Assembly (NCBI GenBank): GCA_021647505.1 | Contig: JAKIUN010000034.1 | Location: forward strand, 1 to 37,921 | Reading direction: 5' to 3' | DNA: 37,921 nt | DNA from: Gammaproteobacteria bacterium | Lineage (GTDB): Bacteria; Pseudomonadota; Gammaproteobacteria; SZUA-152 | Part shown: positions 4,119 to 29,200 of the stretch, in pieces | Numbering within the stretch: position 1 is the first letter of the stretch | Layout of the letters: the number at the start of each line of letters is the position of its first letter | Notes under the pieces: model-generated | Seen by the model: only the letters and a program-made list of their open reading frames with translations | Databases searched by the model: none | What the model was told of the DNA's origin: nothing | Position numbers and translations under genes: made by a program

Positions 4119-5085
4119 GGCTCAGCCCTCCCGCAAGGAGCAGGGCAAGACCGGCCCAGAGCGCGATGCCGCGCTGAATCAGGCGTGTCGCCTGCATGAT
4201 ATCGTTGGCAAGCGGCGGTTCACCGCAGCCGAGTCGTGGACAGTTTTCCCGTTTGCCGTGGTACACCGCCGGGCCACCCAGTTGCAGTGCGAGGGCGCCA
4301 GCGCCGGCTGCCATCACCGGGCCGCCGTTTGGGCTTTTGCAGTTGCCGGCCTGGGTGCGCCAGCAGTGCAGGGCGGTTTGGAACTGGCCCAGGCAGGCGT
4401 AGGTGAGGGCGGTCAGGCGCGCCGGAATATAATTCAGTACATCATCCAGCCGCGCTGCGGCCCAGCCGAAATGTACAAAACGCGGCGTTCGGTAGCCCCA
4501 CATGGCATCCAGAGTGTTGCACAGCCGATAGACGATCACCGCAGGCGCACCGCCGATGACGAACCAGAACAGGGGGGCGAAAATGGCATCGTTGCCGTTT
4601 TCCAGTGTGGACTCGATGGTGGCGCGGGACATGTCGCTTTCATTCATTTGTGTGGTATCGCGACTGACCAGGTGGCTGGTAAAGGCGCGTGCATCGTCAC
4701 GGCGGTTTGACTGCAAGGCCGTTGCGACGCGCTGTGCATGTTCAATCAGGCTACGCGCGCCGATGGCGAGATAAAGCACGCCTATCTCGACAATGAGATA
4801 GGTGTTGTAGCGGCCTGTGATATAGGCGGTGATTGCAGCTGCGGGAAGGATCAGCAGGGAAAGAGCGAGCAGGCCACGGAATTTTAGTGCGAAGGCCTTG
4901 GGCCTGTTGTTATGAACAGAGCTATAAACAGGGCTATGAACAGGGTTGTTGACGCGCTTATTAAGACGCGTCTCGATGGCCTGCGCCAGCCTGCCAAAAC
5001 CAACCAGCGGATGCCAGCGTCGTGGTTCCCCCAGCAGGCGATCCAAAATCAAGGCGGCTAGTATGGTGATCGCAATACTCATCAT
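4111..5085 (-). CDS. cbiB: Adenosylcobinamide-phosphate synthase, membrane protein
   Basis: CbiB (CobD in Pseudomonas naming) condenses aminopropanol phosphate with adenosylcobyric acid in the inner membrane. The N-terminus ALILDRLLGEPRRWHPLVGFGRL is a family signature, and several hydrophobic segments follow (about residues 68-95, 100-110 and 180-200, plus a C-terminal one). Residues around 46-58 form a short repeat (NPVHSPVYSSVHNN) encoded by three 12-bp tandem repeats; it lies in the loop before the second hydrophobic segment. The start overlaps the bluB stop by 4 bases. A methionine codon directly follows the first ATG, so the exact start is uncertain by one residue. Confidence 0.95.
   Translation of the reverse strand: MMSIAITILAALILDRLLGEPRRWHPLVGFGRLAQAIETRLNKRVNNPVHSPVYSSVHNNRPKAFALKFRGLLALSLLILPAAAITAYITGRYNTYLIVEIGVLYLAIGARSLIEHAQRVATALQSNRRDDARAFTSHLVSRDTTQMNESDMSRATIESTLENGNDAIFAPLFWFVIGGAPAVIVYRLCNTLDAMWGYRTPRFVHFGWAAARLDDVLNYIPARLTALTYACLGQFQTALHCWRTQAGNCKSPNGGPVMAAGAGALALQLGGPAVYHGKRENCPRLGCGEPPLANDIMQATRLIQRGIALWAGLALLLAGGLSLA
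4911..4946. repeat. Three 12-bp tandem repeats within cbiB
   Basis: TATGAACAGAGC (4911-4922), TATAAACAGGGC (4923-4934) and TATGAACAGGGT (4935-4946) are adjacent. They keep frame and encode the four-residue units PVHS/PVYS/SVHN on the minus strand. The repeat number could change in 4-residue steps without breaking CbiB. Confidence 0.8.
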
Positions 5086-5747
5086 TCTTCGTTTTCAGGC
5101 CACTTGTCGCTAAACAAGACGCGCTCGAGGGTTTTTTCTTCACGCCAGCCCGTTTCAACCAACATGGGTTTTGCGTAGAACGCCTTGACCGGCCCCAGGC
5201 AGAGCAGGGCGACAGGCTGTGCGCCCTGCGGGCAGTGCAGTAAGCGCGCAAGCGCCGCCGGCTCAAACAGGGAGACCCAGCCCATGCCCAGGTTTTCGGC
5301 GCGCGCCGCCAGCCACAGGTTTTGAATGGCGCAGGCGGTGGAGCACAGGGCCATTTCCCGGGGCAGGGTGCGGCGGCCGAAGAGAGTGCCATCGTCGGGG
5401 GCCTGCACTACGGCAATGAGTTCGGCGCACTCGCGAATGCCGGCGACTTTGAGTTTCAGGAATTCGCGCCTGCGTTCATTCATGGCGTCGGCGGTTCTGC
5501 GAATTTCTTCGTCGACAAGCCGCGCAATGTCGTTACGCAGTGGCTTGTCTTTGATGCGAATGAAACGCCAGGGCTGCATCAGGCCGACGGAGGGCGCCGA
5601 ATGGGCGGCCGCCATGATGCGGCCCAGTACCGCGTCATCTATTTTTTCGTTAGTCAGAAAGTGCCGTATGTCGCGGCGCGCGGCGATGATTCTGTACAGC
5701 GTTTCACGCTCGGCGGCGGAAAAAACAGTGGCATCAGGCTGTGGCAC
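5082..5747 (-). CDS. bluB: 5,6-dimethylbenzimidazole synthase
   Basis: BluB breaks down reduced FMN with oxygen to make 5,6-dimethylbenzimidazole, the lower ligand of cobalamin. The 221-residue product shows the flavin-destructase/nitroreductase features: RRDIRHF at about 24-30, AAHSAPSVGLMQPWRFI at about 46-62, and MGWVSLFEP with the following short loop. Its place in a corrin operon supports this over a generic nitroreductase. Because the reaction needs oxygen, its presence says the organism makes true cobalamin at least under oxic or microoxic conditions. It overlaps cbiB by 4 bases and the ferredoxin gene by 14 bases. Confidence 0.95.
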   Translation of the reverse strand: MPQPDATVFSAAERETLYRIIAARRDIRHFLTNEKIDDAVLGRIMAAAHSAPSVGLMQPWRFIRIKDKPLRNDIARLVDEEIRRTADAMNERRREFLKLKVAGIRECAELIAVVQAPDDGTLFGRRTLPREMALCSTACAIQNLWLAARAENLGMGWVSLFEPAALARLLHCPQGAQPVALLCLGPVKAFYAKPMLVETGWREEKTLERVLFSDKWPENEE

Positions 5748-6084
5748 AGTCCGCTTCCTGGCGATGGTAGATCAGTTCCTCGACCGGTTGGCCGCCGACC
5801 AGGTGTTCATTGATGATGCGATCCAGGTTGGCCTCGGTGACGTTGTAATACCAGATGCCATCGGGCTGGATGCAGAGAACCGGGCCGGATTTGCAGGTGG
5901 CGAAGCAATGGGTGCGGGTTCGTTTGACGCGTAGTTCTCCTTTGTCGATGCCGGCGGCCTTGAATTTTTCGCCCAGCATGTCAAACAATGCCTGGGACTC
6001 GCCTTCTTCGGTACATCGCGGGCCGACACAGACCAGCATGTGGCGTGCGTAGGTCATCATTTTGGGTTTTTCCAGGTTATTCAT
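5734..6084 (-). CDS. cbiW: Thioredoxin-like [2Fe-2S] ferredoxin, CbiW-like
   Basis: This is a small 116-residue redox protein. The likely cluster ligands are Cys19 and Cys24 (CVGPRC) and Cys60 and Cys64 (CFATC), a pattern close to thioredoxin-fold [2Fe-2S] ferredoxins. Cys71 and Cys113 are extra. In Bacillus megaterium a similar ferredoxin, CbiW, lies next to the ring-contraction methyltransferase gene, as it does here, so I use that name by analogy. The start at 6084 is chosen because AGGAGAAAG precedes it; the gene overlaps the cbiH end by 8 bases. Its likely job is electron delivery to a corrin enzyme, possibly CbiH, but the sequence does not show this. Confidence 0.85.
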   Translation of the reverse strand: MNNLEKPKMMTYARHMLVCVGPRCTEEGESQALFDMLGEKFKAAGIDKGELRVKRTRTHCFATCKSGPVLCIQPDGIWYYNVTEANLDRIINEHLVGGQPVEELIYHRQEADCATA

Positions 6085-7444
6085 TGCTGGCTTTCTCCTG
6101 TTCGTTGGTTGCTGTCAGGGTTGCCCAATCCTGTTCAAAGGCCTGTAGGGCTGCGTGGTTGAAGGCACCGTTTTTGCGTATGAGTGACAGGTTGAAGAGG
6201 GTTTCGTTTTGTTGGTTGGTAAAGTGCACACCACATAAGGTGTCACCACGGCGGATGAACCAGGCTTGTTGTATCTTTGCGCTGTCGATGTGCAGGTGGA
6301 AGTGTTCATTTTCGATATTCAGCCAGTCACGGCGCATGGAAAAGTCATTGGCATGCACCATGAGTTCGCTCACGGCGCCACCGTCATTACGCACGACGGC
6401 GCGTAACCGGCCCCATTGTTTGGCGGCGTCGATGACGCTGGCTATATCATGTTGTACCTTGGCTGCAGTGTACTCGCCGGCGCTATCATTTTCGCCACTG
6501 TCGGCGCTGGCTTCGCTGATGGCGGCGATGATGTCGCCCGTCGGGCTGTCAAAGTGATGTGCTGCTTCCCGCAATGACGCCCCATGATTTTTCCGCAGGT
6601 ATTCACGCACGCAGCCTTTCCAGCCGGTCAGTCCCATGCTTAACGAACGGCCGCGTTTTTCACCTTCGATGGCGTCGCCGGTTATGTTTTCATATTTATT
6701 GGCATAGCCCCGTGGCGTAATCATCAAACCCTCTTCCATGTAGGTGCTGCTGTTGCCGATCAGTACCGTCGTCAGCATGCCGATCTTGCAGTCCTTCATT
6801 TCATCCAGCCGCACACGTTGAATATTCTGTGCTTCACGGTAGGCGGATTTGACGATGGCCACGGGCGTATCCGGTTTACGGTATTGCAACAGGATGCGCT
6901 GGGCTTCGACGATCTGCTGGGTACGGCGGCCACTTTTCGGGTTATACAGGGCAATGACAAAATCACTGCGGCCAGCGGCGTCGATGCGCTTGGCTATGGT
7001 CGGCCAGGGGGTCAGCAAGTCCGACAGTGAGATGGAGCAAAAGTCATGGGTTAGCGGCGCCCCCACCAGTGAGGCGCAGGCGGACAGGGCGGTGCTGCCG
7101 GGGATGATTTCAACCTCGACGCCACAGCCGGGTTTCCAACCGGATTTCAACAGCACTTCATAGGTGGGGCCGGCCATGCCATAGACACCGATGTCGCCCG
7201 ATGAAATCAGTGCGACGGTCTTGCCGAGTTGCGCCTGTTCATAGGCTTCGATGCAGCGGTCAATTTCTTCGGTCATGCCTTTGCGAATGACGTCTTTGCC
7301 GGCGAGCAGGTTTTTGACCAGGTTGATATAGGTCGAATAACCGATGACGACATGGGCTTCTTCAATGGCCTGCAAGGCACGCACACTCATGTGCGCTTCG
7401 GCCCCTGGCCCAAAACCGACCAATAAAATTTTACCTTTGTTCAT
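6077..7444 (-). CDS. cbiH: Cobalt-factor III/precorrin-3B C17-methyltransferase fused to a HutX/ChuX-like domain
   Basis: The first 245 residues are a tetrapyrrole SAM-methyltransferase of the CbiH/CobJ type: GKILLVGFGPG near the start, ISSGDIGVYGMAGPTYE, IIPGSTALSACASLVGAPL, ALYNPKSGRR and the TTVLIGNSSTY end. This enzyme methylates C17 and drives ring contraction. About 190 further residues follow. GLTGWKGCVREYLRKNHGAS then LREAAHHFDSPTGDIIAAI resembles the N-terminal helices of HutX/ChuX. After about residue 340, WGRLRAVVRNDGGAVSEL, DWLNIENEHFHLHI, QQAWFIRRGD and GVHFTNQQNETLFNLSL follow the order of HutX/HemS-type haem-carrier domains. This differs from CbiH60 of B. megaterium, whose extension is iron-sulfur; here the tail has only two cysteines. 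I chose the ATG at 7444, preceded by AAGGA and 1 base after the cbiG(C) stop. An ATG at 7459 would add five residues. The methyltransferase call is firm; the tail call rests on pattern recognition. Confidence 0.88.
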   Translation of the reverse strand: MNKGKILLVGFGPGAEAHMSVRALQAIEEAHVVIGYSTYINLVKNLLAGKDVIRKGMTEEIDRCIEAYEQAQLGKTVALISSGDIGVYGMAGPTYEVLLKSGWKPGCGVEVEIIPGSTALSACASLVGAPLTHDFCSISLSDLLTPWPTIAKRIDAAGRSDFVIALYNPKSGRRTQQIVEAQRILLQYRKPDTPVAIVKSAYREAQNIQRVRLDEMKDCKIGMLTTVLIGNSSTYMEEGLMITPRGYANKYENITGDAIEGEKRGRSLSMGLTGWKGCVREYLRKNHGASLREAAHHFDSPTGDIIAAISEASADSGENDSAGEYTAAKVQHDIASVIDAAKQWGRLRAVVRNDGGAVSELMVHANDFSMRRDWLNIENEHFHLHIDSAKIQQAWFIRRGDTLCGVHFTNQQNETLFNLSLIRKNGAFNHAALQAFEQDWATLTATNEQEKASNE

Positions 7445-7445
7445 T

Positions 7446-7850
7446 TTATCCTTGATCATTGTGCAGTCTCACGATGGATACGGTGGCGTTTTTATTGTCC
7501 ACGCCCCGGTATTTGATTTTTTCAAGCAGTAGATTTTCGATGCCTGTGTTGGCAGCCAGCATGGCGGCTGCTTCGGCAACGGCGGGGGTACCCATGTATT
7601 TGCGTACCACTTCGGAGGGGTTGGGTACTTCAACCGTGGACAGTTGTGCGGCTGAATAAAAATTCAGTGGCCAGCCATGCTCTGCTGAGAATGCCAGCAG
7701 GGCGGCTTCGTCATTTTTTTTATCGATGGTGGCCAGTGCATGGATGGCGTCACGCGCAAGGCCGGCTTCCTGTAATGCCAGGTCGACGGTGGTTTCCAGT
7801 GTTTGCTGCGAGGTGCCACGGTCACAGCCCATGCCCAGAATGACTTTCAT
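7446..7850 (-). CDS. cbiG: CbiG C-terminal domain protein (CobE-like)
   Basis: This 134-residue protein matches the C-terminal domain of CbiG, equivalent to stand-alone CobE: MKVILGMGCDRGTSQQTLE at the start, ALATIDKKNDEAALLAFSAEHGWPLNFYSA in the middle, then VEVPNPSEVVRKYMGTPAVAEAAAML. CbiG opens the delta-lactone of cobalt-precorrin-5A and releases acetaldehyde. Here the protein is split into two genes that overlap by 4 bases (7847-7850), so the halves are presumably made together and assemble. The precise role of this domain is not established from sequence. Confidence 0.92.
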   Translation of the reverse strand: MKVILGMGCDRGTSQQTLETTVDLALQEAGLARDAIHALATIDKKNDEAALLAFSAEHGWPLNFYSAAQLSTVEVPNPSEVVRKYMGTPAVAEAAAMLAANTGIENLLLEKIKYRGVDNKNATVSIVRLHNDQG

Positions 7851-8593
7851 GCCGGCTGGCCCTGCGGTGGCCGGTAAACCACCAGGCGTTCGTCGAGTTC
7901 CTGCCAGAGCGCCTGGGGAATTTCGCGCCGGGTCACCCAGAGTACCGCTTTGTGCCGTGCGAGATCGACATCATCCAGACAGTCGAACAGGTGGATGTTT
8001 TTCGGCAACGGGGTCGGCCGTGTCCACCAGTTCGTGGCGCCACACTCCTGCACGAAGGCGATGGGTTCTTCGTTGACGACGTGGGCGGAGACGCGGGTGA
8101 TATTGATTTTCGGCGCCTCGACCTGCCAGCCCAGTTCGCGGCCAAGGATGTCGACGGGAATGGTTTTGCCTACATCCGAGGCGGTGGTCAGCACCGGCGT
8201 GGCCTGTAATAGCCTGGCGAGTTGTTCCGCATAGGCATTGGCGCCGCCGACATGGCCGGACAGTACGGGGATGACGAATTTGGCCGCATCATCGATAACC
8301 AGGATGCCGGGATCTTCATCTTTGGATTTCAGGTGCGGTGCAATCAGGCGCACCACGGCGCCGAGTGAGACAAAAAACACGATCTGCTCATAGTCTGCAA
8401 ACAGGCCCGCCATCTGCGCACGCAGGGCGCCGCGATAGACCTTGATCGCGTTGGGCAGGTTTTGCAGGGTTTCGGCAAATTTCTCCGCGACAATGATTTC
8501 AGCTTCGGGCAAGCGTGGCGCCAATTTCGCGAGTTGGGCTGTACCATGTTTGGTAATGGCGACCATGCCGGTATGTGGGGTTTGAGTTGTCAT
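7847..8593 (-). CDS. cbiG: Cobalt-precorrin-5A hydrolase, N-terminal and central domains
   Basis: The 248 residues cover the N-terminal and central parts of CbiG. MVAITKHGTAQLAKLAPRLPEA starts the first domain. The central signature is IVFFVSLGAVVRLIAPHLKSKDEDPGILVIDD, then FVIPVLSGHVGGANAYAEQLARLL and TTASDVGKTIPVD. It carries the lactone-opening function; the C-terminal domain is the next gene. The presence of CbiG, with CbiD, marks the cobalt-early pathway. A 211-bp gap holding a long hairpin separates it from cbiL upstream, which is much longer than any other gap inside the operon. Confidence 0.94.
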   Translation of the reverse strand: MTTQTPHTGMVAITKHGTAQLAKLAPRLPEAEIIVAEKFAETLQNLPNAIKVYRGALRAQMAGLFADYEQIVFFVSLGAVVRLIAPHLKSKDEDPGILVIDDAAKFVIPVLSGHVGGANAYAEQLARLLQATPVLTTASDVGKTIPVDILGRELGWQVEAPKINITRVSAHVVNEEPIAFVQECGATNWWTRPTPLPKNIHLFDCLDDVDLARHKAVLWVTRREIPQALWQELDERLVVYRPPQGQPA

Positions 8594-9582: not shown

Positions 9583-10887
9583 TCAGTCATGTTGCGCGGC
9601 GTCATGGTCTGGCCGGGCCTGTGCCGAGACGATCCAGACCGGGTTCTCGGCTTGCAGGCGCTGCATGTGCAGGATGGGCTGGCTGCGGCTGGCTTGCAGT
9701 TGGGTCAGATCCCAGTTGGCATGCTGTTTTTTCAGGGTTTCCGTGGCGGTATGCAGGTTTTCCAGAGTGACGAAGTTCATCACCAGCCAGCCGCCCGGGT
9801 TGAGACGTTGCAGGCAAAGCCTGATCAGTTGTTCGAGTTCGCCGCCCGAGCCGCCAATAAAAACCGCATCCGGGTCTGGCCAGTCATCAAGATGCGCGGG
9901 CGCCCTGGCGTTAAATAACTTTAAGTTGTGAATGCCAAGGCGGGCCTTGTTTTGTTGCACGATGTCGGCATCGGCTGGGTTTTTTTCTATCGCATAGACA
10001 TAACCCGCCGGGCAGAGTTGTGCGGCTTCAAGGCCGACCGAGCCAGAGCCGGCACCGATGTCCCAGACGATGCTGCGGCGGGTGAGTTGCAGGCGGGCTA
10101 GTGACACGGCGCGCACTTCGCGTTTGGTGATCAGCCCTTTATCTGGTTTGCGCTGAGCATAACGCTCATCGTCAAGGCCGAAAAGCACGCGCTCTGCCCG
10201 CGGCGAACAGCGTTGCAAAATGACGATGTTCGGCTCGGGAAAGCTCATGCTGGCGGTGTCATTAATCGTTAATTGCCGGTGAATACTTTCTTCCGGCGTC
10301 AGTAACCGTGCGGCGACGGAGAGGCTAAACGCATCGGCCATACCTGTCTGTAACAACAGGCGGGCAATGCGCTCCGGGCCATTTTCCGGGCTGGTGAAAA
10401 TGGCCAGCAGGTCATGTTGCTGGCAGGCCGGCAGGAGGGGGTAAAGGCTATGGTCCCGGTCTGCCTGGTGATGCCATTCGCCGCTATCTTTTGTGTGCAC
10501 TGAGGCGATGTGCGCCGACTGCCAGGCAATGCCCAAACGGGCGCAAGCCAGTTGCAGCGTCGAGGTATTCGGTATAATTTCGCCGTGCTCGTTACCGATT
10601 TTGTCCAGCAGATAGCTTCCTATGCCGTGGCAAAGCGGGTCGCCGGTGGCGAGGACAACCACGGCGCGGTTTTCCCGTTGCGCCGCCGTAATCCAGCCGG
10701 GGATTTGCGCGAGCTTGCCGGTCAGGTCTTTTTGTTCTGCGCCGGCCTTGAAGGTGTCCTTGAACAGGGACAGGGTTCGATGGCCGCCAATGATGACATC
10801 GGCGGTTTCAATCGACGAGAGCGCCGCCGGATCGAGTCCTTCGATGCCGTTGTCGAGTACACCGATGATTCGGCAGGGCTCAGTCAT
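9583..10887 (-). CDS. cobL: Precorrin-6Y methyltransferase/decarboxylase, CbiE-CbiT fusion (CobL)
   Basis: This bifunctional enzyme of about 434 residues methylates C5 and C15 and removes the C12 acetate carboxyl group. The N-terminal half is CbiE-like: CRIIGVLDNGIEGL, ADVIIGGHRTLSLF, VVVLATGDPLCHGIGSYL and the central RVLFGLDDERYAQRKPDKGLITKREVRA hinge. The C-terminal CbiT half has a Rossmann SAM site, SIVWDIGAGSGSVGLEAAQLCPAG, then DAVFIGGSGGELEQLI and NPGGWLVMNFVTLEN. The start at 10887 (MTEPCRIIG) is chosen because it overlaps the cbiD end by 8 bases and starts the conserved fold; an upstream start at 10929 would lie deep inside cbiD. CbiE and CbiT are separate proteins in Salmonella but fused here. 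Confidence 0.95.
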   Translation of the reverse strand: MTEPCRIIGVLDNGIEGLDPAALSSIETADVIIGGHRTLSLFKDTFKAGAEQKDLTGKLAQIPGWITAAQRENRAVVVLATGDPLCHGIGSYLLDKIGNEHGEIIPNTSTLQLACARLGIAWQSAHIASVHTKDSGEWHHQADRDHSLYPLLPACQQHDLLAIFTSPENGPERIARLLLQTGMADAFSLSVAARLLTPEESIHRQLTINDTASMSFPEPNIVILQRCSPRAERVLFGLDDERYAQRKPDKGLITKREVRAVSLARLQLTRRSIVWDIGAGSGSVGLEAAQLCPAGYVYAIEKNPADADIVQQNKARLGIHNLKLFNARAPAHLDDWPDPDAVFIGGSGGELEQLIRLCLQRLNPGGWLVMNFVTLENLHTATETLKKQHANWDLTQLQASRSQPILHMQRLQAENPVWIVSAQARPDHDAAQHD

Positions 10888-11995
10888 GCAGCTCACCCTG
10901 CGTGATTTCGCCCAGTTTGTTGCCGTCAAAGTCGCAGATCAAAACCTTGATGTCGAAGCCACTCGGGTAACGGCGGCTCAGGGTTTCGATGACCTTGTTG
11001 CCCAGCACCTGATAGAACTCACCAAGCAGGCCGATCTCTTCCATGCGCTCACTGGCATAACGTGCCGTCTCGGCCTCACGGATGTCTTTGCAGATGCTTT
11101 CACTGGCGCCAATGCCCGCCGCAAGTTCTGCCAGCAAGCCGGTGTTCACGGCATTGCGGCCGGCATGGGTGATGGTTTCGCCCTGTGCCATCTTGGTCAG
11201 TTTGCCGACCATGCCGCCGATGATGACATGCGTGATGCCTTCTTTAATGACCGTATCCAGGGCATATTTGAGAAAGTCTCCCATTTGTACGAAGCAGGCG
11301 GGCGCCAGTTCCGGCAGTTCTTTTATCACGAATTTTTCCGTGCGGCCGCCGGTGGTCAGTACCACCGTATCCTGTCCCTGATTGGCGGCGACCTGTATGC
11401 CCTGGATCACGCTGTCACGGAAGGCGGCGGTGGAGTAGGGGTGCACGATGCCGGTGGTGCCGAGGATTGAGATGCCGCCGATGATGCCGAGCCGGGCATT
11501 GAGGGTTTTTTTCGCCATTTCTTCACCGCCGGGGACGGAGAGGGTGATTTCCAGGCCGTCGTGTTCCAGCAGGGGGCCTGCTACCAGGCGGACATTTTCT
11601 TCGATATTTTTGCGGGGTGTGCCGTTGATGGCCGGGCCACCAACTTCCAGTCCCAGCCCCCGCTGGGTGACGGTGCCGATGCCCTGGCCGCCTTTGATGA
11701 TGATTTCTTCCGCTTGTCCGGGTAAGCGGTTGATGTCGGCGGTCAGCGGGGCCTTGTCAGTGCAGTCCGGGTCATCGCCGGCATCCTTGATGACCACGGC
11801 ATGGGCGTGATTCTGGTCACAATAGCCATCGCTGACGGCGAACCGGACCCGTTGCCGGTTGGGTAGTTGGCACTCGACATCCGGAGGTACTTCACCCGTC
11901 AACAGGCCGAGCGCTGCGGCGCGCGCGGCGGCCGCAGAGCAGGCGCCGGTGGTAAAGCCCTTGCGGGTGCCTTTTTTCTTTTTTTGCATTGCCAC
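10880..11995 (-). CDS. cbiD: Cobalt-precorrin-5B C1-methyltransferase
   Basis: CbiD is specific to the cobalt-early corrin path and methylates C1. The 371-residue product has a lysine-rich N-terminus followed by the family signature RKGFTTGACSAAAARAAALGLL. Then come VIKDAGDDPDCTDKAPLTADI, GQGIGTVTQRGLGLEVGGPAINGTPR, GISILGTTGIVHPYSTAAFRDSV and THVIIGGMVGKLTKMAQG. The reading frame opens at a GTG (11995) with an ATG two codons later; either could be used. A short gap separates it from the end of cbiC, and it overlaps cobL by 8 bases. Confidence 0.96.
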   Translation of the reverse strand: MAMQKKKKGTRKGFTTGACSAAAARAAALGLLTGEVPPDVECQLPNRQRVRFAVSDGYCDQNHAHAVVIKDAGDDPDCTDKAPLTADINRLPGQAEEIIIKGGQGIGTVTQRGLGLEVGGPAINGTPRKNIEENVRLVAGPLLEHDGLEITLSVPGGEEMAKKTLNARLGIIGGISILGTTGIVHPYSTAAFRDSVIQGIQVAANQGQDTVVLTTGGRTEKFVIKELPELAPACFVQMGDFLKYALDTVIKEGITHVIIGGMVGKLTKMAQGETITHAGRNAVNTGLLAELAAGIGASESICKDIREAETARYASERMEEIGLLGEFYQVLGNKVIETLSRRYPSGFDIKVLICDFDGNKLGEITQGELHD

Positions 11996-12016: not shown

Positions 12017-12685
12017 TTATGCTTGTGCTTTTTGCTGTGCTTCGGCCAATGCCAGCAGGGCATGGATGGCGGAAACGACGAGGGTTGAGCCACCTTTGCG
12101 GCCTTGGGTGATGATCCAGGGGATCGTCGTCAGTTTACTGGTCATGTCCTTGGATTCTTCTGCCGAGACAAAGCCGACCGGCATGCCAACGATCAATGCG
12201 GGCTCGATACCGTCTTCACGAATCATGCGGTCTATTTCCAGTAGGGCGGTGGGTGCATTGCCGATGGCGATGATACTGCCATCGAGCAGCTGCTTTTTCC
12301 GTGCCTTGCGCATGGCCTGAACCGCTCGCGTGGTATTTTCCGCCTTGGCTTGCGCAATCACGTCTGTATCGGCGATGCAGTGATGGGTGGTGACGCCGAA
12401 GTGGGACAAGCGCGGTTGCGACAGGCCGACGCAGATCATTTCGACATCGGCAACGATGTTGGCGCCTTCGCCAATGGCCTTCAGCCCGGCCGGGACGGCG
12501 TCTGGGTGAAAGCGGGTCAGACCATTGAATTCAAAATCGGCCGTGGCATGGATCATGCGCCGCACGATCTGCCATTGATCGGCTGGATAGCTGTGTTCAG
12601 TGGTTTCCCTGTCAACGATGGCGAAGGAATCGTGTTCGATTTTCTGGCCCGCCCGGGTCAGCTGTTCGGTAACGCTATTATTCAT
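12017..12685 (-). CDS. cbiC: Precorrin-8X methylmutase
   Basis: CbiC/CobH moves the methyl group from C11 to C12, giving cobyrinic acid. The 222 residues contain the expected segments: IEHDSFAIVDRE near the start (catalytic His of the family), RMIHATADFEFNGLTRF, IVADVEMICVGL, IGNAPTALLEIDRMI, IVGMPVGFVSAEESK and PWIITQGRKGGSTLVVSAIHALL. The ATG overlaps the cbiX stop by 4 bases (ATGA), indicating translational coupling. Confidence 0.96.
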   Translation of the reverse strand: MNNSVTEQLTRAGQKIEHDSFAIVDRETTEHSYPADQWQIVRRMIHATADFEFNGLTRFHPDAVPAGLKAIGEGANIVADVEMICVGLSQPRLSHFGVTTHHCIADTDVIAQAKAENTTRAVQAMRKARKKQLLDGSIIAIGNAPTALLEIDRMIREDGIEPALIVGMPVGFVSAEESKDMTSKLTTIPWIITQGRKGGSTLVVSAIHALLALAEAQQKAQA

Positions 12686-13566
12686 GCCGCCACCCCGGAT
12701 TTGTTTTCATGATGCGGGTGGTCATGCGAGTGATCATGGTTGTGACCATGGCCATGGTCTTCGGCCAGCTGCCGGTAGTGACAACCATCACATTCCATCA
12801 TGCGGGTGGCCGGGGTTTCTCCGCGAGCTTCGTCGACGCGTTGATTGAGCAATGCATAGATTTCAGGTTCAAAACCAAAATAGCTGCCGTGGCCGAGGGC
12901 AATCTGCGGGTATTGTTGTTGCAGGCGTTTTACCTGGCGTTTGATGCGTTCGATGAGCGTGCCGGTGAACAGGTAGTAGGGCAGGATGGCGATCTGCGTC
13001 ATGCCCAGGGCCACCTGCTGCCGGATGACCGCCTCAAGGCGCGGATAGGTAATGCCGGTAAAGGCGATGTCTACATGCGTGTGATCGTTTTCATCGAACA
13101 GCCAGCGCGCCATTTTGGCGACTTCACCGTTGGCGATCCGATCCGAGGAGCCACGGCCCAGCAGGATCACGCCGGTGGTCTTTGGATCCGGCATGTCCAA
13201 TTGCGCCATGACCTTGCGCAGATTGCGTTGCAGGAGAGTAAAGATACTGTCATTGGCACCGAGGTGTGGCGCGTAAACAAACTCGACGCTGGTGTGTCGC
13301 CGGCGCGCTTCGTTGATGTGATGGGGGATCTCCATCTTTACATGACCCGCCGCATTCAGGATCAACGGCACCACAATGACTCGCTTGGCATGGCGGGCGG
13401 CGGTGTCCAGGCCCTCATCCAGAAGCACGTCGGCGAATTCGATGAAGCAGGTCTCGATCCGCCAGTGTGGATTCATTTTTTTCCATTGGGTGGAAAATTG
13501 CTTGATTTCATCGTTACCCGCCGGGTGACGCGAGCCGTGCCCGACCAGCAGTATGGAGGTGTTCAT
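12682..13566 (-). CDS. cbiX: Sirohydrochlorin cobaltochelatase, long CbiX
   Basis: CbiX inserts cobalt into sirohydrochlorin, the committing step of the cobalt-early route. The 294-residue protein begins MNTSILLVGHGSRHPAGNDEI, with the metal-site histidine in VGHGSR. It continues with IETCFIEFADVLLDEGL and VIVVPLILNAAGHVKMEIPHHI. A second half starts around VILLGRGSSDRIANGEV, then DIAFTGITYPRL and IAILPYYLFTGTLIERI, consistent with the two-domain long form. The C-terminus is strikingly His-rich (DHGHGHNHDHSHDHPHHE), a likely metal-binding or storage tail known in CbiX proteins. The start at 13566 overlaps the cbiF stop by 4 bases; the longer upstream frame would run into cbiF and is rejected. 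Confidence 0.95.
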   Translation of the reverse strand: MNTSILLVGHGSRHPAGNDEIKQFSTQWKKMNPHWRIETCFIEFADVLLDEGLDTAARHAKRVIVVPLILNAAGHVKMEIPHHINEARRRHTSVEFVYAPHLGANDSIFTLLQRNLRKVMAQLDMPDPKTTGVILLGRGSSDRIANGEVAKMARWLFDENDHTHVDIAFTGITYPRLEAVIRQQVALGMTQIAILPYYLFTGTLIERIKRQVKRLQQQYPQIALGHGSYFGFEPEIYALLNQRVDEARGETPATRMMECDGCHYRQLAEDHGHGHNHDHSHDHPHHENKSGVAA

Positions 13567-14372
13567 GAGGTAGTTTCCTGTTTCTTTTCGGCCTTGCGAA
13601 AACGGTGCGTGAAGTGCTTGTCGTAAAGCCTGGATTTTTTCAGTGCCGGCCACTGCCGTGCGCCGATGGTAGGGCTGGCGATGATCATGGCCTGGCTGTT
13701 GATATTTTCGGCCTGGCACTTTTCACGGATGGTGGCGATGGTGCCATGGACGATTTTTTCCTCGTCCGGCCAGCTGGCCTTGTGCACGACGAGTATTGGG
13801 GCGTCGGCATGCCAACCGGCCGCCAGGAGTTCACGTTGGACTTTTTTCAGCAAGGTCATGGAGAGGAAGATGCAGAGCGTGCACCGGTGCCGGGCGAGTG
13901 CCTGGAGTGATTCGCCTTCGGGCATGGGGGTACGGCCTGCGACGCGGGTGAGGATGACAGTTTGTGTGACTTCCGGCAGGGTCAAGCTTTCCACGCCGGC
14001 GGCGGCCGAGGCCATGGCCGACGAGACACCTGGCACGACGCCCACGTCGATGCCCTTGGCGTCCAGCGGTTGCACCATTTCGATGAGCGCGCCGTACAGG
14101 CCCGGGTCACCGGTTTGCAGACGCACCACGGTTTTGTTTTTGCCGGCCCTGGCGATCAGCCAGTCGGTAATGGCTTCCAGGGCCATGCCTTTGGAGTCCT
14201 GGATTTCACAGCCTTCCCGGGCCCAGCGCATGGCGGCCTCGGAAACCAGCGAGCCGGCAAACAGGATGGCATCGGCCCTGGCGATCAGACCCTGGCCCTT
14301 GATGGTCAGCAGCTCGGGGTCGCCGGGCCCGGCGCCAACGAACCAGACCTTGCCCGTTGGGGCGTCACTCAT
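13563..14372 (-). CDS. cbiF: Cobalt-precorrin-4 C11-methyltransferase
   Basis: CbiF (CobM) methylates C11. The 269-residue product has GKVWFVGAGPGDPELLTIKGQGL, ADAILFAGSLV, VVRLQTGDPGLYGALIEM, VPGVSSAMASAAA, LPEVTQTVILTRVAGRTPMP, and CIFLSMTLLKKVQRELLAAGW with APILVVHKASWPDEE, all in family order. The ATG overlaps the cbiA stop by 4 bases. Confidence 0.96.
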   Translation of the reverse strand: MSDAPTGKVWFVGAGPGDPELLTIKGQGLIARADAILFAGSLVSEAAMRWAREGCEIQDSKGMALEAITDWLIARAGKNKTVVRLQTGDPGLYGALIEMVQPLDAKGIDVGVVPGVSSAMASAAAGVESLTLPEVTQTVILTRVAGRTPMPEGESLQALARHRCTLCIFLSMTLLKKVQRELLAAGWHADAPILVVHKASWPDEEKIVHGTIATIREKCQAENINSQAMIIASPTIGARQWPALKKSRLYDKHFTHRFRKAEKKQETTS

Positions 14373-21660: not shown

Positions 21661-23379
21661 TCAGCGCATCAATAAGTACAACAACACCCCATTCCCAATC
21701 GCCAAGGCAATACTCAGCCCACGCCAGAAGACGACCGGATTGCGCTCCAGCAGTGGCGCCGAGGCATCGTCCATGAAGTTGGGGTTGGGATGTGACAGGT
21801 CGTGGATGAATTCCGACAGGATATCGTAGCGCTGCTTGGCTTCCGGGTGCACGGCCTTTTTGATTGCGCGATCCATCCACACGGGGATCATCGGATTGTG
21901 ATGGTAGCTGGGCTGGTATTTCAACTTGGCCACGGCGCGGCGGCCCTCGGTACGATCCAGGGCGTCGCCATAAGGCAGCTTGCCGGTGAGCAGTTCGTAG
22001 GTGATCGTGCCGAGGGAGAAGATATCAGAGCGGTTACTGCCGGGCTGGCCAAGCAGGTATTCCGGCGCGGTATAGTTTTTTGTCCCCAGCATTTCGATGC
22101 GTTCGATGGGGCTGCTGATCTCGGCGATACCGGCGATCTTGGTGGAACCGAAGTCGATGATCTTTGCCGTACCATTGGCGTCGAGCATGATATTTTCCGG
22201 CTTCAGATCCTGGTGCAGCATCTCCAGGCGGTGAAAGGCACGCAGACCGGTGGTGACCTGCTCCACCAGCAAACGAACTTCCTTAATGTCCGGCCGTGAA
22301 TGTTGATCCATCCAGTCACGCAGGGTCTGGCCGTCGATGTATTCCATGATGTAGTAGCGGAAATTGCGCTTGCGCTTCTGGTCGATGATCTTTAGCACGC
22401 GGGAATTATTGATGCGCTTGCCGGCCCATTCCTCGCGTACGAAGCCTTCGATATAGGCGGGATCGTCGTCGTAATTCACCGAAGGGGTCTTGATAATCAC
22501 GGTCTGGCCGGTTTCCGAGTCCTCGGCCGTGTACACCTGGGTACGCTTGCTGGCATGGATTTCCTTGAGGATGCGGTAGCCGTCCAGCACCATGCCCGGA
22601 TCCAGCGGCGGCGGAAAGGGCAGCTGGGTCAGCTCTTTCAGGGCGGTGTTGGTGTCCTTCATGGGCAGACTGTCGACGCGTACTATCTGGGCAGTGATAT
22701 TGTCGTTGCTGCCGCCGTCGAGGGCGAATTTCACCAGCTTTTCCGCCGCCGCTTGCAGGTCGTGGTTTTCTTCCACGATGCGTTGGATATCGTTGTTGTT
22801 GACGAAATCGTGCACGCCATCAGTGGTGAGAACGAAGATATCCCCCGGCTTTAGCGTGAGCTTGCGGTAATCGATATCGAGGTGGATGTCGATGCCCACG
22901 GCGCGGTTCAAGTAGTTTTTTTCTTCGGATACCCAGCGGCGGTGATCAGTGGTCAGCTGCTCCATGTTATGTTCTCGCAGACGATAAACGCGTGAGTCAC
23001 CAACATGGAAGATGTGCCCGGTGGTGGACTTCAGCACCAGTGCGCTAAAGGTGGTCAACAGGCCGCGGGTGGCATGTTCGGTATGCTGTGCCTTGCTGTA
23101 CAGCCAACTGTTGATGGCGGTAAGAATCTTGTGCGCCGAGGTCTTCGCGGTCCATGAATCCGGCGTGGAATAATAGTCGGAGAGAAAGCTGCCGACGGCC
23201 GTTTGTGAGGCCTCGCGGCCGTCGATACTGCTGCTTACACCATCGGCGATGGCGATGGCAATGCCCTTGGTGTCGAGCTGTGGTGGTTCGGGAATGATGG
23301 CGCCGTGGAAGTCCTGGTTTTCGCTTTTCAGACCTTGCTCGGAATGTTGACCGATGGTGACGTTGAGTTTTGCATTCAT
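21661..23379 (-). CDS. PP2C phosphatase-Ser/Thr protein kinase fusion with a C-terminal membrane anchor
   Basis: This is a bifunctional signalling protein of 572 residues. Residues 1-240 form a PP2C phosphatase: metal-binding IADGVSSS (Asp46), HVGDSRVYRL (about 125-134), LTTDGVHDF (Asp187) and GSNDNIT (Asp226). Residues about 265-530 form a protein kinase: Lys297 in VIIKTPS, catalytic HQDLKPENIML (Asp391), DFGSTK (Asp409) and APEYLLG. The last 20 residues (about 552-570, GLSIALAIGNGVLLYLLM) are one hydrophobic helix, so both domains should face the cytoplasm from a membrane tail anchor. All catalytic residues I can check are present. The substrate is unknown, and the neighbours do not suggest one. 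The gene is monocistronic. Confidence 0.95.
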   Translation of the reverse strand: MNAKLNVTIGQHSEQGLKSENQDFHGAIIPEPPQLDTKGIAIAIADGVSSSIDGREASQTAVGSFLSDYYSTPDSWTAKTSAHKILTAINSWLYSKAQHTEHATRGLLTTFSALVLKSTTGHIFHVGDSRVYRLREHNMEQLTTDHRRWVSEEKNYLNRAVGIDIHLDIDYRKLTLKPGDIFVLTTDGVHDFVNNNDIQRIVEENHDLQAAAEKLVKFALDGGSNDNITAQIVRVDSLPMKDTNTALKELTQLPFPPPLDPGMVLDGYRILKEIHASKRTQVYTAEDSETGQTVIIKTPSVNYDDDPAYIEGFVREEWAGKRINNSRVLKIIDQKRKRNFRYYIMEYIDGQTLRDWMDQHSRPDIKEVRLLVEQVTTGLRAFHRLEMLHQDLKPENIMLDANGTAKIIDFGSTKIAGIAEISSPIERIEMLGTKNYTAPEYLLGQPGSNRSDIFSLGTITYELLTGKLPYGDALDRTEGRRAVAKLKYQPSYHHNPMIPVWMDRAIKKAVHPEAKQRYDILSEFIHDLSHPNPNFMDDASAPLLERNPVVFWRGLSIALAIGNGVLLYLLMR

Positions 23380-24996: not shown

Positions 24997-26250
24997 TTAA
25001 AATAATCCCAAGGATGAATAATTGTGCTGAGGCAATAAATAGTCGAGCTGATCATTACCGAGGTGGTGTATGAGGATGTCTCCCATGATGTCACGATAAT
25101 CAACGCTGAAATCCAGGTAACGCCCACGAAAAAGCTGATCGCTTTCCAGACCGGGCCATTCACCGTAAATACCGCCGTTAACGGGTTTTCCTGCCAAAAA
25201 CCACGTACACCCGTTGCCATGGTCAGTGCCACGGCTGGCATTTTCTTTGGCCGTACGGCCGAACTCGGTGTAGCTCATTATAACAACATCGTTCATCCTT
25301 TCTCCAAGATCGGTATACAAGGCGGCAATACCATCAGCGAATTCTCTGTGTCGAAGGTAGTGTTGACTGGTTGACTCACCACCGCCCTGGCCCGCATGTG
25401 TATCCCAGCCATTGATATTGAGCGTAACGATCTCCAAACCCACATTTGCCTTGATCAGTTGAGCTGTTTGTTGCAGCTGTCTTCCGTAGCGTGTGTCAGG
25501 ATAAGCTGCATTTTTTGATGGTTTATACTCTTGTGCTAACAATGAGTCTACAAGCTCCATGTCATTGAGCAAGGTGCGCCCTGCTTGGTGCAGCCGGGAG
25601 CGATAAGGGTGGGGTTCTGCAGAAATTGGTAAATTAAACGCTCGTAAATTTTCAACCATTTTTGCCTCTATCTTTCTGTCGACATCGAGCCTAAATTCCC
25701 GTAACTCCCTAAATAACGATACCGAAGCCTTACCACGCAATGACTGAGGCATGATTTCCGCAAAGGCGACAGAACGGAGTTGGGGGGTGTTCGAAACTGA
25801 GCTTAAATGCCGATTTAACCAGCCATCGAAACGTTTGTTGTTTGTCGCCGATTCAATAAAGTGTTGGCTATCAAAATGTGAATGCGAGCTTTCTGGATAA
25901 TGAACGGCGGGTAGCACAGCCAAGTCTCCGGTATTGAAAATTGGCTTTAAAGACGCCAATCCCGGATGCAGACCAAAAAAACCGTCTAAATTTAAGGCGG
26001 AAGTAGGGTCGGATGCACTGGGAGGAGGGATGGCAATATTGGGCCGTAAATCATAGTAGCGCACGTCGCGGTAGGGAATGCAAGTATTAAGCCCGTCGCA
26101 ACCTCCGCGTTGAAAAATAGCCACTAATGTTTTCTTTTGCGCAGCATGTGCAAAACGAGTCAATGGCCAATTAATGCCATTTGAAATAAAACCCGCACAA
26201 CCGACCGATGCCGCTAAGATTCCTTTAACAAATTGTCGTCGTTTCATCAT
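24997..26250 (-). CDS. DUF1501 family protein, predicted Tat-exported
   Basis: This 417-residue protein starts MMKRRQFVKGILAASVGCAG, a twin-arginine signal followed by a hydrophobic stretch and an AHA cleavage-like site near residue 36. The body shows DUF1501 features: TLVAIFQRGGCDGLNTCIPYRD, LHPGLASLKPIFNTGDLAVL, PESSHSHFDSQHFIESA, LNINGWDTHAGQGG, VVIMSYTEFGRTAKENASRG and TDHGNGCTWFLAGKPVNGG. The histidine- and aspartate-rich pattern resembles sulfatase/phosphatase-type metal sites, but no reaction is established. It lies 16 bases downstream of the DUF1800 gene; these two families are very often paired and probably act together outside the cytoplasm. Base composition is AT-richer than in the cobalamin genes. 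Confidence 0.92.
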   Translation of the reverse strand: MMKRRQFVKGILAASVGCAGFISNGINWPLTRFAHAAQKKTLVAIFQRGGCDGLNTCIPYRDVRYYDLRPNIAIPPPSASDPTSALNLDGFFGLHPGLASLKPIFNTGDLAVLPAVHYPESSHSHFDSQHFIESATNNKRFDGWLNRHLSSVSNTPQLRSVAFAEIMPQSLRGKASVSLFRELREFRLDVDRKIEAKMVENLRAFNLPISAEPHPYRSRLHQAGRTLLNDMELVDSLLAQEYKPSKNAAYPDTRYGRQLQQTAQLIKANVGLEIVTLNINGWDTHAGQGGGESTSQHYLRHREFADGIAALYTDLGERMNDVVIMSYTEFGRTAKENASRGTDHGNGCTWFLAGKPVNGGIYGEWPGLESDQLFRGRYLDFSVDYRDIMGDILIHHLGNDQLDYLLPQHNYSSLGLF

Positions 26251-26266
26251 AATAGTAGATCACATG

Positions 26267-29200
26267 TTATTGATACTGATACGCAGGAAGGCTTAAGATG
26301 CTAGCCAGTGCCTGTCGCAATCGTGTCTCGGTTGTTTCCGCATTAATATCGAAGTTATCAGGGCTATTCATATTCATAAAGATAATGTTATATCCTGTAT
26401 CGCTGATTTCCCCACCCAGATGTAAATCAGCAAAAAAATTGATGATTTCACCGGCCTGACGATAATCGTTAGCTAAAAGAAGAGCCTTAATGTCCCTGAC
26501 CGACGTATCTCGCGTTCTTCTGTCGGTACCCAAAACTTGGTTGACGAAACTCAGGCGTTGCAGAATTTGATTAGGATTAATCCAGTTGTCGCCGATTTCA
26601 GGCCAGCCGGTAGGGACAGGATTGCGGAATAAACGTACCCCCATACGGTTTAGTGACCATCGAATAACCTGCTCGTTGGGGGTGGCGTCGAGACCCCGAA
26701 CGACACCTGTGATGAACTCAATTGGTGTTTTTATTTTGATACGCATATTGATAGGACTTAAAAATTCTGAAGAAGACAGGATATAAGACAATATTTGTTT
26801 GATATCTCCATCAGAGGCCAAAAATATATCAGCACAATTTTCTGTAAATGACTTCTCAGGTGTGTCACTGATAAAATATTGCCCCAGCTTTGTACAGATA
26901 AAAAATGCAGTGCTCGGGTGAGTGGCCAGTATATCCAACACCGCTTCGCCTTCTTCAACACCGCCAGCGGTAATCGTATTGCCGAGAAAGTTCTTATCCT
27001 GGTCATTGTGGCGGCGGGCGTCGAAATAAAATTGGTCGTCTTTAACTCTCCAGCCCGTGAAGATTTTGGCAAGCGATTCGATGTCGTGGTGGTCATAGCC
27101 GCCATCAACCCCCAGGGTGTGTAATTCCATTAGTTCACGTGCATAATTTTCATTAGGTTCCGCCTTAATATTTCTAACGCTATCGAGGTAATAAAGCATA
27201 GCTGGGCTTTTTGCACTGATTTCCAGCAAGTCGCGAAAACGTCCCAAAGCTTGCTGTCTGAATTGATTGTTTTCTTCTAGCTCATACTGGATTTTTCCAT
27301 GCTTACCCAGATGTGTATTAAAATGGTTATCCCAAAACCAAGTCATCACCTCGTTTAGCTGATGCTCACTATCGAGCATGTATTGGATAAGATACCATTG
27401 TAATTCGTTAGCATCTTTAGGTTTGAACTTTTTCATTCTGGTTCGCAGCACAGAATCATCAATAGTGTGTGGATTGAGTTGCTGGGAAATGTATTCTTGC
27501 GGACCAATACGCTCTACCCTTTTCAAGAGCTCTGGTGTCGCGCCAAACGTGATCCTGTTTAGGATGTGCGAAGAGGCGGAGGTATGCGAAGGTATTCGAA
27601 CGTCTCTGGAGTCAGTTTTGAATGTAACAGCTGTGAGTGATTTATTGCCCGCAGCATCCGCTGCTTCCAGGCTTAATGAAACCATTTCTCCTGGAGACAC
27701 CTGATCATTATAAATAGTGAACATCCAGTTAGCATCTCCGAGCGTCAGGTTGATATGTTGACGGTCAACCGTGGTGCCCAACAAAGGATCGCTCAGGCTC
27801 ACATACAGCTCTACAATACCCACATTGTCCACTGCTGTACCCTTTACAATGAATCCACCTGCCGCAACCGAAGCACCATTCTTGGGAGAAATAAGTTCAA
27901 CGATAGGAGGGGATGAATCAGTAGTTACGATATATTCAGCGGATACGGTGCGTTCGTTGTTGGTATTATCAACGGCGGTTACTGAGACTGTTATCATTTC
28001 TCCAGGTGTTATTGCTGAAATATTGATAGGGGCTTCCCAGCGCTTGGTCAGTATGTCATAGGTGGCGGGTACAGTGGTAATGCCAGCGATTGAATCAGTT
28101 ATAGCCACATTGATGTAGCTTAACTTGTCGTTGTCATCAGCAAGCCCTTGCAATAAAAATCCAGACGCATTTGCAAAACCAGAAGGTGCCGGCGATAAGA
28201 TAAAAATAGTCGGTGGCTGTAAGTCGAGAGAACTACTTCCATCGCGTGTTATTTCTAGTGTAACAGGGCCTTCAGATCTGATTACTTTACTATGATAGAA
28301 ACGATCTTTATTGAATGGTTTTATAGCGCTGAAAACATAGGTTTCTCCATTATCTAACCCGTCTAGATCAAAGTAAACGCGACCCTCTTGGCTGGTAATA
28401 CCACTTTTTACCCAAATGCGTTTTTGCTCTGGAGTGATTCGGAAGGCGACAAGTTTTTTCTCAGATAGGGGGATGCCATTGTCCCCGTCTAGCAAAGTGA
28501 CAAGAATAGTTCCAATAGGGAACTTAAAATCTCCGGTAGACGTCAGGATTGATGTGTTTACGTTTCCAGTTCCGTATGGGTTGACTGCTTTCAGGTAATA
28601 TTTTCGTCCTTCTCCCAGGCCGTCAAGTTCAAAAACCGCTTGACCTTTAGCGTCAGTAGTGTTTTCACTGTGCCATTTCTCGCTGCCGTCGGCCAGGCGT
28701 TCCATCGCCACGATTTTAACTTCGGAAACTGCTGTTTCACTGATGCCATTGTGTAGGCTTACGTTAAGCGCTTTAGTACCTACGTTAAAAATATAGGTAC
28801 CGGACGTAATAATGGCTTGGCTTCGCTTCCATTTTCCACTTAATGTGCTTTTTGCTCTCAGGACGTACTGGCGTCCTTTGTCCATCTCCGGTAAATCCAG
28901 CCTTAAAATACCCCCTGCGTCGGAGGTGACGCTCTGAAACCATATAAGGGCTCCATCGTTGGCCACTTTGCTTACGATAACTTGAGTATTGGCAAGAATA
29001 GGGGAGTTTGATTGGGTGGCATTATGTACAGTGACTTCGACTGTACCAACTTTCCAGTTGAAGGTGCCGGGTTTGTGAAAAGTTTTGCTGACAACTCTGG
29101 TGCTGCCACTATAAGGTCTTGCTTTAAAGAAGTATGTCCGGCCAGCGCCTAAATCATCCAGCTCGAATACAGCGATGCCGTTTTCATCGGTGACTTTTTT

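Follow-up and report, generated by a model that had tools for sequence, protein, structure and literature searches.

Why would an enzyme of corrin ring contraction carry at its C terminus a domain built like a heme carrier? Few steps of B12 synthesis are harder than ring contraction, and the electron route of the cobalt-early pathway is known for few of its enzymes. Besides methylation, the conversion of cobalt-factor III to cobalt-precorrin-4 also needs a reduction. CbiH60 of Bacillus (Priestia) megaterium is likewise a CbiH with a C-terminal extension encoded in a cobalt-early operon, and its tail is a redox-active Fe-S, sulfite-reductase-like domain. The window (the whole 37,921-nucleotide stretch of gammaproteobacterial DNA analyzed here) encodes a CbiH with a different tail, next to a ferredoxin gene and within a corrin operon. 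The features of this locus are as follows, with residues numbered here and throughout according to the 460-residue open reading frame.

5082-5747 (-): BluB, 5,6-dimethylbenzimidazole synthase (TIGR02476, 226 bits, cut-off 150)
5734-6084 (-): thioredoxin-like [2Fe-2S] ferredoxin of the CbiW class, sharing 8 bases with the end of cbiH (2Fe-2S_thioredx and ferredoxin models, consistent but below cut-off)
6077-7459 (-): open reading frame of the cbiH-tail fusion, 460 residues counted from the first ATG
6110-6469 (-): predicted ChuX/HutX/HemS-fold beta domain, residues 331-450 (PF06228, PF05171, and AlphaFold model)
6290-6325 (-): most conserved tail motif, W-L-N-I-E-N-E-H-F-H-L-H, residues 379-390 (53-tail alignment)
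6389-6403 (-): conserved Arg353 and Arg357 (53-tail alignment)
6470-6646 (-): helical leader of the tail, residues 272-330, counterpart of the HutX/ChuX N-terminal helices (HutX profile and predicted helices)
6647-7444 (-): CbiH domain, cobalt-factor III/precorrin-3B C17-methyltransferase, residues 6-271 (TIGR01466, TP_methylase)
7446-7850 (-): C-terminal part of CbiG (CbiG_C above cut-off)
7847-8593 (-): N-terminal and middle parts of CbiG (CbiG_N and CbiG_mid above cut-off)
10880-11995 (-): CbiD, a marker of the cobalt-early route (PF01888, 295 bits)
12682-13719 (-): CbiX-type cobaltochelatase with a His-rich end (PF01903, 156 bits)

The CbiH half and the fold of its tail

A second ATG, at 7444, encodes Met6 of the reading frame. 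Because AAGGA lies just 5' of the Met6 codon and the proteins of relatives begin at this same residue, 7444, the start given in the original prediction, is the likelier start of the fusion gene and would yield a protein of 455 residues; the ATG at 7459 is possible. The complete CbiH domain that had been described was borne out by a match of residues 11-253 to the full length of TIGR01466 (cobJ_cbiH; model positions 1-239 of 239, 319 bits, cut-off 246), with a TP_methylase match of 114 bits. CbiH converts cobalt-factor III to cobalt-precorrin-4 through methylation at C17 and formation of a delta-lactone (PMC7242693).

The claim of a HutX/ChuX-like fold behind this domain was supported by profiles and by structure. 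PF06228 (ChuX_HutX) matched residues 327-442 (35.2 bits, cut-off 25, E 1.4e-8) and PF05171 (HemS) matched residues 327-404 (34.1 bits, cut-off 24). In 10 aligned relatives, a HemS match was present in all 10 and a ChuX_HutX match in 9. When a ten-tail profile was compared with the sequences of solved structures, HemS ranked first (E 2.5e-7, with W-x-N and F-x-L-H in the match), followed by ChuS and ChuX-family chains, and all five best-ranked PDB sequences were HemS or ChuS. Position 1 of the HutX model aligned at residue 284, so that the helical leader is also homologous, as had been claimed when it was quoted as part of the HutX likeness. The HutX equivalog TIGR04108 scored 24.7 bits with the whole protein and 27.9 bits with the tail alone; since both scores fall far below the cut-off of 110, we consider the tail a HutX-fold domain and not HutX.

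Structure prediction, which had been proposed as a check, gave a confident AlphaFold model of the tail from a ten-sequence alignment (mean pLDDT 84.6, pTM 0.80). Foldseek returned 27 significant matches to this model, all of them ChuX, HutX, HemS, PhuS, or ChuS or uncharacterized chains of the same fold, with E 5e-10 against ChuX. VIA-align superposed the model on ChuX 2ovi (Z 17.8, rmsd 2.2, 151 residues) and on HutX (Z 17.7, rmsd 2.5, 160 residues), and the first unrelated fold scored Z about 5. These alignments run over model residues 3-178 for 2ph0 and 6-179 for HutX 5exv, thereby covering both the helical leader and the beta domain. Identity to solved ChuX/HutX members is ~13-20%. By these profile and model matches, the tail comprises ~170 residues with the ChuX/HutX/HemS fold and follows a complete CbiH. 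In the AlphaFold model of the whole protein, the CbiH half came out poorly (mean pLDDT 69), and our conclusions are confined to the separate domains rather than to the geometry between them. HemS, PhuS, and ChuS are tandem two-domain heme chaperones or heme-degrading proteins in which each half has the fold of the window tail, whereas the tail is a single copy.

Other identities for the tail were rejected. The confident fold model rules out a disordered tail, and the Pfam cut-offs, the recurrence across genomes, and the structure together rule out a chance resemblance to ChuX/HutX. We found no Pfam match to the sulfite-reductase (CbiH60-type) families in the tail and no Fe-S cysteine set in the tails, in which the cysteine of column 283 is the sole one kept in most relatives. 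The tail therefore differs from the Fe-S extension of CbiH60, a distinction that the original prediction had drawn.

Recurrence, history, and pathway context of the fusion

In an even draw of 369 gammaproteobacterial genomes, we observed the fusion in 21 genomes of 14 families, and the tail was always fused. CbiH or CobJ occurred in 41 of the same genomes, so that about half bear a ChuX-fold tail. The other CbiH/CobJ proteins were mostly short (250-311 residues), with a few longer frames that included fusions to other corrin enzymes. More tailed CbiH proteins occur elsewhere in the phylum, and a tail search of the genome collection returned nine loci, all in proteobacterial metagenome-assembled genomes (MAGs) of several groups. 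Thus, the architecture that the original prediction had suggested seeking in other genomes recurs in 14 gammaproteobacterial families and also in a corrin operon of Methylomonas sp. LL1, where the fusion is plasmid borne. In the latter, the single annotated relative found, the name covers the methyltransferase only (precorrin-3B C(17)-methyltransferase), and the next gene is annotated as a ferredoxin. Our full-text literature searches, mostly of papers outside subscription, returned no description of a HutX/ChuX fusion to CbiH or CobJ; the enzyme and the fold are each known, and their combination is so far undescribed and widely recurrent.

Several of these loci have individual architectures. 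The Methylomonas sp. LL1 locus (L107, NZ_CP064652.1 81822-96367) is a large corrin operon part that contains the CbiH-ChuX fusion and adjoins recombinase genes on a 125-kb plasmid. A 704-residue frame (L030, G363:C61) is a triple fusion of CbiH, ChuX, and BluB, with the ferredoxin gene absent from the examined flank. A tail-less CbiH (L082, G049:C2:109524-110234) is fused to an apparent CobK/CbiJ-type precorrin-6x reductase in 522 residues, and CbiG precedes CbiH in a single 624-residue frame at another locus (L090, G074:C40). Finally, a 1.5 Mb genome gave a weak match to the central part of the tail (L061, G456:C1:360999-361202); no CbiH lay in the examined stretch, and this locus could encode a standalone relative.

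Tailed CbiH proteins were 67-91% identical to the CbiH half of the window and tail-less ones 34-45% identical. In a tree, a branch with support of 97/93 separated the tailed CbiH from the others and was recovered in 98% of bootstrap trees, although the tail-less rows were long-branched. Distances in the CbiH half and in the tail were correlated (r 0.86, with 0 of 2000 permutations as high), with 2.7-fold greater divergence in the tail. In the window's genome, the tail gave the only match to a ChuX_HutX or HemS domain. Because the tailed CbiH form one clade and the genome has no other such match, a single old fusion inherited by descent fits these comparisons better than recent drift into the corrin operon by a HutX gene, which we rejected on the same evidence.

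The tail also tracks with the pathway. CbiG, which is split over two genes in the window (7446-8593, minus strand) and is a marker of the cobalt-early route, was present in all 21 tailed genomes, none of which had a CobG above cut-off, and in 11 of the 20 tail-less CbiH/CobJ genomes. By these counts, the tail is a feature of the cobalt-early route but not of every user of it, and the presence of CbiG and absence of CobG in tailed genomes led us to reject an aerobic CobJ identity. BluB is an oxygen-dependent enzyme. Its gene in the operon, together with heme-copper oxidase genes in the window's genome, implies that the cobalt-early route runs in a cell equipped for oxygen respiration.

The conserved site and the ferredoxin neighbor

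Among the 53 aligned tails, conservation was concentrated in two places. Within the motif at residues 379-390, Phe387 and His390 were each kept in 50 of 53 tails, His388 in 49, and Trp379 in 47; upstream, Arg353 was kept in 52 of 53 and Arg357 in 49. Most relatives near the window have the same motif or one similar to it, and the f207/f227 group mostly has W-L-N-V-V-T-D-x-F-H-V-H. Both histidines were lost in three tails (L038, L059, and L060).

In a hand-read chain alignment, with ChuX residues counted from the chain used, His390 aligned with ChuX His98 and with the histidine of the HutX G-H-L motif, and His388 aligned with the preceding HutX histidine. Arg357 occupied the position of ChuX His65, which is thus not kept in the tail. 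His65 is not family-wide, as HutX and a standalone protein (L093, which has a nearby histidine) also differ there. The window tail therefore has in common with the ChuX/HutX heme carriers (PF06228) the fold, the length, the helical leader, and the His98-type residue, but it differs from them in its fusion to CbiH in a corrin operon, in the arginine that replaces His65, and in scoring below the HutX equivalog cut-off. The proximal histidine of HemS/PhuS lies close to where the second copy begins, whereas no conserved histidine was found in the helical leader (residues 272-330) among the 53 tails. We also looked for a strongly basic site that might hold a many-carboxylate cobalt intermediate; the tails are acidic overall, with a mean net charge of about -6.

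The [2Fe-2S] ferredoxin gene that had been noted beside cbiH is present at 5734-6084 and lies downstream of the tailed cbiH in 40 of 52 relatives, in many of them with an overlap of 1-8 bases. In the other 12, no ferredoxin gene was seen within about 0.9-1.5 kb, and none was found beside tail-less CbiH at the nine loci examined (L082 and L084-L091). The protein has the cysteine pattern C-X4-C-X(about 30)-C-X3-C with Pfam and NCBIfam scores under the cut-offs, and its Cys19, Cys24, Cys60, and Cys64 were invariant in 41 of 41 neighbors. In B. megaterium, cbiW adjoins cbiH60. The CbiH60 host has CbiW, which is listed as a thioredoxin-like [2Fe-2S] ferredoxin and so belongs to the same class as the window's neighbor gene, and the cysteine pattern is that of this class (PMC6250708).

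All three tails without the histidines also lacked the ferredoxin neighbor, and since L059 and L060 are of one genus, these represent about two independent events. In L059 and L060 (genome family f208), the tail is degenerate, with both histidines, Trp379, and the neighboring ferredoxin gone and the helical leader kept. These two tails may show loss of the ligand site in progress.

Possible roles of the tail

Of the original prediction, the fold assignment, the difference from CbiH60, and the relevance of the ferredoxin are supported; that the tail binds heme, passes on a cobalt tetrapyrrole, or supplies a cofactor remains a possible consequence, with the His98-type residue kept but His65 replaced. 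A conserved metal-tetrapyrrole fold with a coupled ferredoxin is best read as an electron-delivery module that replaces the Fe-S tail of CbiH60. In our proposed mechanism, the CbiH half would methylate C17 of cobalt-factor III and contract the ring, and the ChuX/HutX-fold half would bind a metal tetrapyrrole via the conserved F-H-x-H site and accept electrons from the next-door [2Fe-2S] ferredoxin, enabling oxidized cobalt-factor III to be reduced on the way to cobalt-precorrin-4. The tail and ferredoxin would thus take the place that the CbiH60 Fe-S tail and CbiW have in B. megaterium, but in oxygen-respiring bacteria. We regard this two-domain ring-contraction enzyme, with its tetrapyrrole-binding and ferredoxin-fed tail, as an evenly balanced proposition. 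It draws on the fold matches, on the CbiG-positive and CobG-negative tailed genomes, on the signs of oxygen exposure (BluB and heme-copper oxidases), on the retention of the site residues in 47-52 of 53 tails despite fast divergence of the tail, on the ferredoxin of 40 of 52 relatives and of the Methylomonas sp. LL1 operon, on the joint absence of histidines and ferredoxin neighbor in L038, L059, and L060, and on the CbiW parallel in B. megaterium. Against it, ChuX and HutX are carriers that are not known as redox cofactor domains, ChuX His65 is lost, 12 of 52 relatives are without a nearby ferredoxin, and the correlated losses amount to ~two events; fast evolution of the tail and its degeneration in a few lineages would also suit a structural role.

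As the species that the tail would bind, heme is slightly favored over the cobalt intermediate. We put forward only tentatively the further possibility of a heme-dependent, ferredoxin-fed ring contraction, which would involve the first heme protein of the cobalt-early route and give bacteria that respire oxygen a substitute for the Fe-S CbiH60 with which to operate the "anaerobic" pathway. CobZ of Rhodobacter capsulatus is a flavin/heme/Fe-S enzyme that acts before CobJ in the aerobic route. Judging from the title of its paper, cited in PMC7242693, it too is a heme-containing protein of ring contraction.

A serious rival, though one we consider rather doubtful, is that the tail is a chaperone without a redox role, in which the histidine ligates the cobalt of cobalt-factor III or cobalt-precorrin-4, shielding the intermediate from oxygen and passing it between CbiL, CbiH, and CbiF. 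The ChuX/HutX fold binds metal tetrapyrroles, the substrate of the fused enzyme is a cobalt tetrapyrrole, the conserved arginines could bind carboxylates, and carriers such as HutX deliver heme to enzymes (PMC12670364). However, a chaperone leaves the tight coupling to the ferredoxin gene unexplained, and the acidity of the tail does not point to a binding site for a ligand with eight carboxylates. We consider unlikely a weaker rival, a purely structural or dimerizing domain recruited from a ChuX-like protein that has lost tetrapyrrole binding: the missing His65 equivalent, the persistence of degenerate tails in L038, L059, and L060, and the 2.7-fold greater divergence of the tail would fit such a scaffold, but a near-invariant F-H-x-H and conserved arginines (49-52 of 53) would not be expected of it.

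That the tail senses heme, tuning corrin synthesis to heme or iron supply in a regulatory rather than catalytic capacity, seems very improbable. Heme and B12 arise from a common precursor, and ChuX-family proteins bind heme reversibly, with PhuS being regulatory (PMC12670364), but the enzyme sits mid-pathway, away from the branch point, and the ferredoxin would again have no explanation. In favor of an annotation or assembly artifact, many of the relatives are MAGs. We give this explanation practically no weight; it is refuted by a frame that stays open across dozens of independent genomes, among them the one-contig G144 and G158, and in the complete plasmid record of Methylomonas sp. LL1.

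Returning to the electron-delivery reading, a heme-carrier fold on CbiH with a usual ferredoxin neighbor points to a distinct solution to ring contraction in oxygen-exposed bacteria, and the fusion suggests an as yet undescribed means by which a B12 precursor is handled or supplied with electrons. Residues and hosts, such as Methylomonas sp. LL1, are now named for testing.

Outside the corrin genes, we observed other unusual architectures in the window. A gene at 26267-30502 (minus strand) encodes a protein of 1411 residues in which alpha-2-macroglobulin-like and Ig-like stretches precede a DUF1800 domain, and a DUF1501 gene (24997-26250, minus strand) adjoins it. A further gene (21661-23379, minus strand) encodes a 572-residue fusion of a PP2C phosphatase and a Ser/Thr protein kinase.
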